This document shows, piece after piece, positions 37,862 through 57,920 of a stretch of 64,000 nucleotides of DNA. The stretch is taken from positions 1-64,000 of the forward strand of contig WGMP01000035.1 in NCBI GenBank assembly GCA_016124975.1, in the 5' to 3' direction. The notes under the pieces were generated by a model. That model was given only the letters and a program-made list of their open reading frames with translations, had not been told where the DNA came from and searched no databases. Position numbers and translations under genes: made by a program. Each line of letters opens with the position of its first letter. The stretch's first letter is position 1. Source of the stretch: Phycisphaera sp. (GTDB taxonomy: Bacteria; Planctomycetota; Phycisphaerae; Phycisphaerales; SM1A02).

Positions 37862-39465
37862 GCGCTTCTCGCCCTTTCCGCCAATCGCACCTCGAACGCA
37901 TCGCGCCCATACTCGGCGCCACGCACGTCACCTGACTGCCCAAGAAGGCGCAGCGCCTCGGCGTCCACGACCATCGCCTCGGCAAGGTCGCATGGCTTCG
38001 ACACGGTGACCGCCAGGCGGCCATCCGAGATGCCTGCGTGAAGTTCATCCGCCCAAGGCGATCTGGCGATGCGCACCGCGCATTCATGTCGGTCCTCCAC
38101 ACCATGGCGAGACGATGCTTCCTCGGCATCCCGAGGCGTTGCGGCGACCACGCGGGGCGCCACCATCGACGATTTCGGCCGCGCGTGAACAAGTTCCATG
38201 CGCCAATCGAAGCCGAGGGAGCGACCGAACGGCGCGTCGAATGCGCGAGGGCCATCCGCCGTCATGCATGCACGCACCCGCCAGACGGTGCTGGCGCCAT
38301 GGAATCGCCGATGGCCGCGCCGATGCTCTCGGCCCGCCGAATCGTGCGCCAGGCCGCCCATGCGATCGCAGCCCGATGGCGGGGTCACCACGAGAACCAG
38401 CCTTCCACCCAACGACGATTCCGATCCGCGAGGCGACTCATCTCGTCCGCGCATGTCCGTTTCCTCGCCCGAATGGTCGTCGTCGCGCATGCCTGAGCCC
38501 GCCGCCAGCTGCAGCCGCCGCCACATGACATGATCAAGACCCGTTCCATCGAGGACGACGATTCCCACAGCTCCAAGGCGTATCGCCTGCTCCGCGCACC
38601 ACACCCGGGCGCAGGCAAGCCGAGATGCTTCCGTCTGCGCACTATTCGGCAACGCCCGAACTCGATCGCAGCCACCATTCCACGGGAGGCGAGTCCGTTG
38701 CCGAGCCCCCTGCGACAGCGCGAAGTCGGGCACAAAGATGGATCCATCAAGCACCGTCTCGTCAACATGGACTCCGCCAGCCTCGACCCACTTCGATGGA
38801 AGCGCGGCGGGCTGCGGGCAGACCTTGCTTCCGATCCAGGCGATGGCGCGACCTGCAAGCCGAGGGTGCGCCATGGCCCGATGCACGACATGAAGCACGC
38901 ATCCGAAGGGAACGATCCATGCAGGCCTGCCGTGACAACCGACCATGGGCTCGGCAATGTCGTCGCACAGCCCGCCCGCATCCTCATCGAGCACCAACCC
39001 TTCGAACTCATGAACGCCGCCGAGAACGAGCCCGCCCCCGAGCGCCGCGTCGACACTGGAAAGATCCGAGCCAGGACGCCCAGCTTCACATGAATGCCGA
39101 TCGCGGAACGGTGCGCCGACACCGGCATGCAGAACCACGCCATCGCCGACGGAACCGATCGGAACATGGTCCTCTTGCCCGATACCAGGAAGATCCGAGC
39201 AGAACCCCGGCATCAACGCCGCATCGCGGAGTGAGGGCCCGTCCTTCGGCGGGACATCTCCAATCGGTGGCACTCCATAAAGCGGCGGCACTGCATGGAG
39301 CGGCGGAGACAAACCATGCCGCGGCGAAGCATCCGCAGCGTCGAGCGCTGCAAGCTGCACGCGAACCTCGCGCGCGACGCATGCCGCGTCTCGGATAGGC
39401 CTGCGCCCACCCCGCCGACCCGGCAGGAACGACGACGAAAATCCTGTCTCGATGCTTCTCTTCAT
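37858..39465 (-). CDS. imuA: ImuA, RecA/SulA-like mutasome component
   Basis: ImuA is a RecA-like protein that works with ImuB and DnaE2. The core is visible in SSVDAALGGGLVLGGVHEFE and RLACARVWCAEQAIRLGAVG, followed by IVVLDGTGLDHVMWRRLQLA. I choose the ATG at 39465, which has GGAGG 8 bases upstream; the ORF-track ATG at 39561 lies inside a 13-base tandem repeat. The product has 535 residues, about twice the usual 230-250, through Pro/Gly-rich segments around residues 50-120 and insertions such as the one after LQLAAGSGMRDDDHSGEETD. No intact Walker A motif is seen. It is the first gene of imuA-imuB-dnaE2. Confidence 0.78.
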   Translation of the reverse strand: MKRSIETGFSSSFLPGRRGGRRPIRDAACVAREVRVQLAALDAADASPRHGLSPPLHAVPPLYGVPPIGDVPPKDGPSLRDAALMPGFCSDLPGIGQEDHVPIGSVGDGVVLHAGVGAPFRDRHSCEAGRPGSDLSSVDAALGGGLVLGGVHEFEGLVLDEDAGGLCDDIAEPMVGCHGRPAWIVPFGCVLHVVHRAMAHPRLAGRAIAWIGSKVCPQPAALPSKWVEAGGVHVDETVLDGSIFVPDFALSQGARQRTRLPWNGGCDRVRALPNSAQTEASRLACARVWCAEQAIRLGAVGIVVLDGTGLDHVMWRRLQLAAGSGMRDDDHSGEETDMRGRDESPRGSESSLGGRLVLVVTPPSGCDRMGGLAHDSAGREHRRGHRRFHGASTVWRVRACMTADGPRAFDAPFGRSLGFDWRMELVHARPKSSMVAPRVVAATPRDAEEASSRHGVEDRHECAVRIARSPWADELHAGISDGRLAVTVSKPCDLAEAMVVDAEALRLLGQSGDVRGAEYGRDAFEVRLAERARSA

Positions 39466-55926: not shown

Positions 55927-56748
55927 ATGGTTTCCGACACCCAGAGTGCCCCACGCCCGTCCGCCAACGCCAGCCGCACGGTCCGATTCCGCATCAAGCG
56001 GCAGGACCGCCCGGGCGAGGCACCTCGCTGGGAGGAGTTCCTCGTCGACGCGGAGCCGGGGTCGAATGTGATCGCCTGCCTCCAGCAGATCGCCCGCATG
56101 TCGAAGACGGCCGAGGGCAAGGCCACGACGCCCGTGTGCTACGACTCGGGCTGCCTCGAGGAGGTCTGCGGTTCCTGCGCGATGGTGATCAACGGCAAGG
56201 TGCGCCCGTCGTGCTCCGCGCTCGTCGACAAGGTCGTCGGCCCCGACGGCACCATCACCCTCGAGCCGATGTCGAAGTTCCCCGTCGTGCGCGATCTCGC
56301 GGTCGACCGCTCGCGCGCGTTCCACAACCTCGAGCGCGTGAAGGCGTGGGTCCCGATCGACGGCACCTATCACCTCGGCGCGGGGCCGAAGGACACTCCT
56401 GCCAACCAGGAGACGCGCTACACGCTGTCGACCTGCATGACCTGCGCGTGCTGCCTCGAGGCGTGCCCGCAGTTCAACCTCGAGGAGGACAAGTCGAAGT
56501 GGGACGGCGAGTTCATCGGCGCCCACGCGATCTCCCAGGCTCGGCTCTTCAACGCCCACCCCACGGGCGCCGCGCTCGCGTCGGAGCGCCTCGATGTCCT
56601 GATGGCCAAGGGCGGCGTGAACGACTGCGGCAACGCGCAGAACTGCGTGAAGGTCTGCCCGAAGGAGATCCCGCTGACCGAGTCGATCGCAGCGATCGGC
56701 CGCGCGGTGACGGTGCACGCGATCAAGAGCTTCTTCAGCGGGCGATAG
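55927..56748 (+). CDS. sdhB: Succinate dehydrogenase iron-sulfur subunit
   Basis: The 273-residue protein carries the [2Fe-2S] ligands in CYDSGCLEEVCGSC and the two ferredoxin-type cluster motifs (STCMTCACCLEACPQ and NCVKVCPKEIP), so [4Fe-4S] and [3Fe-4S] clusters are expected. It passes electrons from SdhA to the SdhC haem. A 20-residue N-terminal extension precedes the family start. It is complete and shows no sign of decay although it is 2.4 kb downstream of sdhA, with two opposite-strand genes in between. Confidence 0.95.
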   Translation: MVSDTQSAPRPSANASRTVRFRIKRQDRPGEAPRWEEFLVDAEPGSNVIACLQQIARMSKTAEGKATTPVCYDSGCLEEVCGSCAMVINGKVRPSCSALVDKVVGPDGTITLEPMSKFPVVRDLAVDRSRAFHNLERVKAWVPIDGTYHLGAGPKDTPANQETRYTLSTCMTCACCLEACPQFNLEEDKSKWDGEFIGAHAISQARLFNAHPTGAALASERLDVLMAKGGVNDCGNAQNCVKVCPKEIPLTESIAAIGRAVTVHAIKSFFSGR

Positions 56749-56761
56749 CCCCAGCGCGCCG

Positions 56762-57031
56762 CCAACGATCTGTATCGCGCGACACGAAAATCAGGCGTGC
56801 CCGCATGCTTCAGCATGCGGAACGGGTGGTGTCAGCCGTCGACTCCGACGCGTGTCGTTCCGCAGGTTGAAACCTGCGGGCACCCCTGGTGAATGACTCC
56901 GACGACCTGAATCGCGCGACACGAAAATCAGGGGTGCCCGCATGCTTCAGCATGCGGAACGGATGACGCCAGCCGTCGACTCCGACGGGCTGCGTTCCGC
57001 AGGTTGAAACCTGTTGACACCCTAGTTGAAC
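56762..57031. repeat. Tandem pair of a REPIN-like palindromic element
   Basis: A unit of about 137 bases occurs twice in tandem. Each has GTGCCCGCA at one end, a hairpin CCGCATGC-TTCA-GCATGCGG, an AACG/CGTT flank, and a second hairpin CCGCAGGT-TGAA-ACCTGCGG with TGCGGGCAC at the other end, the exact inverse of the first terminus. Copy 2 has a diverged right end (TGTTGACAC). The build matches REP doublets mobilised by RAYT transposases; no transposase is in the window. The 299-base gap after sdhB is filled by this element. Confidence 0.8.
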
Positions 57032-57047
57032 GACGCCCACGCACCAG

Positions 57048-57743
57048 TCACCGTCGACGCCGTCGCACCGCCAGCATCCCGACGAGCGCTGCCGCCATCG
57101 CGGGCGGCGCGGGGATGTTCACCGTGAAGATCAGCATCTCGCCCGCGCCAGAGCCGGGCCGAAGCGGATCGGCCATGCCAGGCGTGTTCCGCCAGATCCA
57201 GCGCGCGTCGGTGGTGATGCCCGCGATCACGCCCCACGGCGCGATGCCGTTGTGCTCGCCGACATAGGTCGGTTCCCACGCGCCGAGCCCGTCGGCCGAC
57301 GCGATGTGCGCCTCGATCTCCGACGCGAGCGGATGTGGCGCGCCCGTGTTTCGGTCCGTGTTCGTCGCATAGACGCGCCAGCGCGCGTCGCCCGTCAGCA
57401 GCGTGCCGAGCGACGGCGAGGAGAACTGCGCGAGAAGTCCCTGTGCGACCGAGTTGTCCGACCACGCTGCGATGTAGATCGTCTCGGTCGCCTCGAAGCT
57501 CCAGGTCTCGGCGATCGACCAGTTGAAGGTTCCCGGGTTCCCCGCGAAGCCCGTCTCGTTGCCGCCGATGTAAGTGAAGGTCGACCCCGCGCGCGTGAAG
57601 ATCGCGTAGTGGTTGTCGCAGGTGATCGTGGTGGTGACGAGCTCCGCATGCGCCGACGGCGCGGCGACGAGGAAGAGCGCGGCGAGCGGATGGACGACGG
57701 CGTGCGCGATGGCCCGCGCGCGTCTCGGTTGATCGATGAACAT
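57048..57743 (-). CDS. Secreted protein with PEP-CTERM-like sorting signal
   Basis: From the ATG at 57743 (GAGGGGAA upstream) the product has 231 residues, with an N-terminal signal peptide (VVHPLAALFLVAAPSAHA) and a C-terminal PAPPAMAAALVGMLAVRRRRR: a Pro-Ala-Pro motif, a hydrophobic helix and an arginine run, the tripartite layout of PEP-CTERM-type tags. The middle is a beta-rich domain with many aromatic and Thr/Asn residues (CDNHYAIFTRAGSTFTYIGG, TWSFEATETIYIAAWSDNSV). Function is unknown; it is presumably anchored in the outer envelope after processing by an exosortase encoded elsewhere. It is a single gene downstream of the SWIM protein on the same strand. Confidence 0.7.
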   Translation of the reverse strand: MFIDQPRRARAIAHAVVHPLAALFLVAAPSAHAELVTTTITCDNHYAIFTRAGSTFTYIGGNETGFAGNPGTFNWSIAETWSFEATETIYIAAWSDNSVAQGLLAQFSSPSLGTLLTGDARWRVYATNTDRNTGAPHPLASEIEAHIASADGLGAWEPTYVGEHNGIAPWGVIAGITTDARWIWRNTPGMADPLRPGSGAGEMLIFTVNIPAPPAMAAALVGMLAVRRRRR

Positions 57744-57920
57744 CTGTTTCCCCTCTTTGGTTGTGCGTCGGCCGTGCAGCGCGCACGGCTCGATGCCGCG
57801 AGGGTGCCGCGGATCCTGCGGATTGCAACGACTGCGGCGCCCGCTCAAGGCAGACGGAACCCTGCGGCGTCTACCTGTGCCGCCTATTCCGTCTCTGCGG
57901 CCTCTGCCGTCGCGCGACGC

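Follow-up and report, generated by a model that had tools for sequence, protein, structure and literature searches.

The gap between sdhB, encoding the iron-sulfur subunit of succinate dehydrogenase (55927–56748, plus strand), and a convergent ORF of 266 amino acids (57048–57848, minus strand) is filled by a hairpin-rich tandem array, and the question arises whether this array is a mobile REPIN-type element or a local duplication. It is located in the window, i.e., the stretch of 64,000 nucleotides of Phycisphaera sp. analyzed here, which belongs to contig C20 of a 3.61-Mb draft genome (G000) consisting of 59 contigs. Both neighboring genes point with their 3′ ends towards the array, and no match in Pfam or NCBIfam could be found for the 266-aa ORF. 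The most probable reading, to which a probability of roughly 0.85 can be assigned, is that of a BIME-like tandem pair of REPINs from a lineage-specific REP family, spread in trans by a RAYT.

The array consists of two direct repeats of 137 nt (56762–56898 and 56899–57035, spacing 137) with 85% identity. The tandem element with 137-base copies described in the original prediction was thus confirmed, with its end about 4 bases downstream of the predicted position 57031. The first copy comprises a partial linker, REPIN 1, and the beginning of the next linker. REPIN 1 (56797–56883) is an 87-bp pair of REPs with outward-facing tags, of which the left one has the TGC stem type (56797–56824, plus strand; GTGC CCGCATGC TTCA GCATGCGG AACG) and the right one the GGT stem type (56856–56883, minus strand; GTGC CCGCAGGT TTCA ACCTGCGG AACG), separated by a conserved spacer of 31 bp (56825–56855). 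A 50-bp linker forming the tag-inward gap (56884–56933) leads to REPIN 2 (56934–57020), also 87 bp long, in which the REP of the TGC stem type (56934–56961, plus strand) is intact and the right arm of the GGT stem type (56993–57020, minus strand) is decayed, with 3 mismatches to the consensus and a broken stem foot.

The 9-base termini of REPIN 1 are exact inverse complements, as predicted (GTGCCCGCA at 56797 and TGCGGGCAC at 56875–56883). The terminus that the second copy was thought to have lost is present and altered by substitutions only (TGCGGGCAC to TGTTGACAC), with no deletion. Likewise, the two hairpins in opposite orientation do exist and face each other, but they are not different elements: both are the same REP 28-mer, made up of a GTGC foot, an 8-bp stem, a TTCA loop, and AACG, and differ by compensated stem changes (on the tagged strand GTGC-CCGCA[TGC]TTCA[GCA]TGCGG-AACG and GTGC-CCGCA[GGT]TTCA[ACC]TGCGG-AACG). 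Since the hairpin patterns are expected only 0.01–0.02 times per window (≤3 mismatches), their occurrence is not due to chance. As single-stranded DNA, REPIN 1 folds into one long interrupted hairpin (z = −6.3; none of 200 shuffled sequences was as stable), as is characteristic of REPINs, and the decayed REPIN 2 folds into separate hairpins. An intrinsic terminator, i.e., a stem-loop followed by a T run, was not detected within 56600–57200, nor was a sigma-70 promoter at the array. The Rfam search revealed no match near a gathering score; of four weak matches, three concerned microRNA families, and all were regarded as chance.

The additional copies expected by the original prediction could be identified throughout the genome. 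The pattern GTGCCCGCANNNTTCANNNTGCGG matches 206 sites compared to 3 for a reversed control (≤3 mismatches), as would be expected of a REP, i.e., a palindrome of 20–40 nt in many copies. In the window and the stretches around the hits, together 345 kb, 186 REPs were mapped in about 60 clusters (≤4 mismatches). Control stretches totaling 400 kb contained no REP (≤5 mismatches); as they were picked away from the listed hits, this result shows only that few sites are missing from the hit list. In line with the REPIN definition of inverted REPs with outer tags and constant spacing, 60 of the 62 tag-outward pairs are spaced by 31 bp, whereas the tag-inward gaps are variable (50/51, 74–76, 93–95, 138 bp and longer). 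For this reason, the 87-bp tag-outward pair is regarded as the constant unit, the REPIN, and the 137-bp period is a REPIN plus linker; the predicted 137-base element is therefore real as a repeat, but the inverted pair of 87 bp is the better candidate for the mobile unit. The copy number of REPs is probably underestimated, since 34 of the 118 contig ends carry a REP within 400 bp and arrays probably broke the draft assembly. A second family of palindromic repeats, GGAGCCGCCGCAGCGGCGACCGCTC, was observed at 128 sites compared to 1 for the control (≤3 mismatches). These repeats are often arranged in tandem at about 50 bp (e.g., G000:C49:2-126, C29:42433-42557, and C48:38663-38787) and also occur inside some tag-inward gaps of REPIN arrays, with examples adjoining the arrays on C2, C5, C6, and C32.

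Four main stem types (CCGCATGC, CCGCAGGT, CCGTGGAC, and CAGCAGAC) occur among the REPs, in which the GTGC foot, the TTCA loop, and the AACG tail are nearly constant. Across 45 distinct REPs, taken from this genome and from two sister genomes, the share of paired stem cells is 94% compared to 78% after shuffling, and 57 cells are changed on both sides compared to 16 after shuffling and at most 9 in slid controls. The REP stems are thus kept by compensatory change. An asymmetry of G-T wobbles on the tagged strand (56 cells versus 6) originates nearly completely from one haplotype and was not used as evidence. Furthermore, identical arms were found in none of the 60 REPINs, with 9–14 expected from shuffling, and in none of 52 after thinning to one per locus, with 7–12 expected; as the units share ancestry, these trials are not independent. 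The arms are also unlike in the few tag-outward pairs with 31 or 36 bp listed for the sister genomes G004 and G006. Purely heterodimeric REP families are known, and protection from hairpin-cutting enzymes was proposed as the reason (PMC3733652).

The location of the REPs was analyzed using gene calls from a purpose-written gene finder based on codon usage. As predicted, the copies are located between genes: only 2 of the 186 REPs fall into predicted genes, compared to 80% of random positions, and both are weak single matches that were omitted from the flank counts. Among the 24 clusters with two assigned flanks, 18 are convergent, 6 co-directional, and none divergent, and 297 control gene pairs comprise 48 convergent, 198 co-directional, and 51 divergent ones. 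The resulting share of convergent gaps, 75% versus 16%, is significantly increased (p = 3e-9). Of the clusters with a single assigned flank, 30 of 34 face the 3′ end of a gene.

This strong bias could mean that the array was kept mainly for a function that it serves for the host where genes converge, with mobility being past or secondary. Roles in relieving supercoiling via gyrase, protecting RNA 3′ ends, or stopping transcription between converging genes are candidates, and roles of these types have been proposed for the BIMEs of E. coli. Such an explanation appears rather unlikely, as only a small share of the gene ends carry an array, 13 of the 16 genomes of the genus are devoid of the REP family (≤1 mismatch), and the copy in the window lacks a terminator with a T run. 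Moreover, the same bias would be produced by selection against insertions into promoters and genes. Published REP families are mostly located downstream of genes as well (PMC3733652).

The REPIN reading calls for a RAYT gene elsewhere in the genome, and such a gene was found on contig C15 (ORF 38526–39209, minus strand, probable start near 39065). Its product scores 89.3 bits against the NCBIfam equivalog NF047646 'REP-associated tyrosine transposase' (cut-off 80) and matches Pfam Y1_Tnp above the cut-off, which places it in the REP-associated class of HUH/Y1 proteins. In an alignment with TnpAREP of E. coli (4ER8), an HVH motif stands opposite HMH, and the Tyr of RYIHLNP aligns with the chain residue counted as 115; Tyr115 is the catalytic tyrosine of the E. 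coli enzyme (PMC8266576). About 125 bp upstream of the probable start, one REP and one REPIN are located (from C15:39190), which have the same TGC/GGT subtype as the array in the window. The gene thus corresponds to a REPtron with REPs of its own type on the upstream side; within 500 bases downstream, no REP of the window type was seen. Genes of the PSD1, PSCyt2, and DUF1501 families are found in the neighborhood and point to a member of the Planctomycetota. According to a rough estimate, a RAYT would lie near a REP cluster by chance with about 1% probability per Y1 gene, which is not negligible.

In total, three Y1 genes were detected in the genome, and mobilization of the REPINs by another Y1 transposase, encoded on C14, on C30, or in a part missing from the draft, was considered for this reason, and also because the sister genomes G004 and G006 carry REPs with no detected RAYT having window-type REPs beside it. 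This possibility is quite improbable, as, among the three, the C15 gene is the sole one for which an adjoining REPIN of the window type was detected. The C14 gene, a RAYT paralog with about 40% identity, is located within its own, different set of REPs, GGTGCCACCACTTCNAGTGGTGG, which occurs at six genome sites; four of these surround the gene, and a single dispersed doublet (C20:66745-66838) lies on the contig of the window, just past the end of the window. The Y1-like protein from C30 (G000:C30:70249-70575) reaches 60.8 of 80 bits and is therefore below the RAYT equivalog cut-off, and there is no window-type REP beside its gene. Usually, each REP type is accompanied by a single RAYT (PMC6006769), a pattern that the C14 and C15 RAYTs with their separate REP types fit. 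At the C14 locus (G000:C14:13278-14164), the gene is enclosed by its REPs with inverted outer flanks (GTCGACAGCC), which recall the TIR-flanked genes (TIRYTs) described in PMC3733652.

Both the dispersed copies and the RAYT gene, in whose absence the original prediction would have had to yield to a local duplication, are present. The rival view that an intergenic hairpin was duplicated locally in tandem, suggested by the direct tandem in the window and by tandem growth at many loci, is refuted by the dispersal of the copies, as the 87-bp unit recurs between unrelated flanks in about 60 clusters spread over about 45 contigs, and can practically be dismissed.

Among 16 genomes of the genus, the REP pattern was found in G000, G004, and G006 only (≤1 mismatch), and the versions in the two sister species are diverged. 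RAYT relatives were detected in G000, G002, G004, and G006. The co-occurrence of REP pattern and RAYT in these 16 genomes (Fisher p = 0.007, uncorrected for phylogeny) is weak support for the pairing, since the sister RAYTs are only about 40–44% identical, and those of G002, G004 (C87), and G006 have other hairpins nearby, whose feet were read as GTGG. The search for related loci with the C15 RAYT resulted in one distant match. The gap 3′ of an iron-dependent-repressor-like gene after acsA holds a RAYT in G000 (L199) and in G004 (L205), and in ten other genomes of the genus no RAYT could be matched to this gap. Due to about 38% identity, opposite orientation, and this absence, orthology of the two genes is not claimed. 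Downstream of sdhB, the REPIN of the window was found in no relative within 330 bases, and no clean empty site was found, as the neighbors differ and some have other repeats. Such other tandem repeats follow sdhB in G002, G004, G005, and G011 (L193, L198, L194, and L195, respectively), as if its 3′ flank were a repeat hot spot of the genus.

All features of the family have precedents among BIMEs, REPINs, and heterodimeric REP families, and the foot tetranucleotide is the sole departure from textbook REPs: directly 5′ of the hairpin, nearly all REPs carry GTGC and not GT[AG]G. For this reason, the window REP was not assigned to the GTAG superfamily, which includes planctomycete members (PMC3733652). 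Tag-outward (HH) dimers, conserved spacers, heterodimer-only families, and a location downstream of genes are common to both; the tag is one base off GTGG, in a comparison that draws on the described features of the superfamily, for which 24 families are listed. REP-like repeats devoid of GT[AG]G are on record beside RAYTs of classes 2.6 and 3 (PMC6006769).

With the REPINs of Pseudomonas fluorescens SBW25 (Bertels and Rainey, 2011, PMC3116915), the family shares inverted REP doublets of constant length as the replicating unit, the intergenic location, some ordered tandem clusters with flanks, and clusters beside RAYT genes. It differs in the sequence, the GTGC foot, and the arms, which are never identical, and tandem arrays are common here, whereas most REPINs of SBW25 are singlets. 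The BIMEs of E. coli, with Y, Z1, and Z2 REPs, are likewise mosaics in which non-identical REPs stand in inverted orientation, often as tandem arrays, and are served by the HUH/Y1 enzyme TnpAREP (4ER8), to which the C15 RAYT was aligned, but their foot is GTAG (PMC8266576). In contrast to the E. coli stems with an AA-GC bulge, a perfect 8-bp stem with a TTCA loop is found here, whose shape comes nearer to that of the Stenotrophomonas group 3 REP, a perfect palindrome of 8 bp with a loop of 3 nt.

The REPIN-type interpretation of the window element is thus supported by a dispersed, intergenic family of tag-outward pairs with a fixed 31-bp spacer and by a RAYT gene with a cluster directly upstream. 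The C15 RAYT, as an HUH/Y1 single-strand endonuclease, would recognize the GTGC foot and the hairpin on single-stranded DNA and would spread REPINs in trans; binding, cleavage, and movement are carried over by analogy from the enzymes of E. coli, Stenotrophomonas, and Marinomonas (PMC8266576). The arrays might then grow and shrink through their linkers by recombination or slippage. Selection would remove insertions into genes and promoters, and copies would mainly persist at the 3′ ends of genes, the least harmful sites.

With this family, a full pair of REPIN and RAYT is added from a little-studied planctomycete lineage, together with clean numbers for the fixed spacer, the unlike arms in every pair, and the strong bias to convergent gaps. 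Its arrays probably account for breaks in the draft genome. Tentatively, it may even represent a re-tagged system, in which RAYT and REPs shifted together from GTGG to GTGC, the predicted cleavage dinucleotide was changed, and the arms were kept unlike so that each REP folds alone. Under the guide model of PMC8266576, a GTGC foot is predicted to select GC or GA and not CT, and GTGC in this genome versus GTGG beside the sister RAYTs provides a natural test of whether the foot guides the cleavage site.
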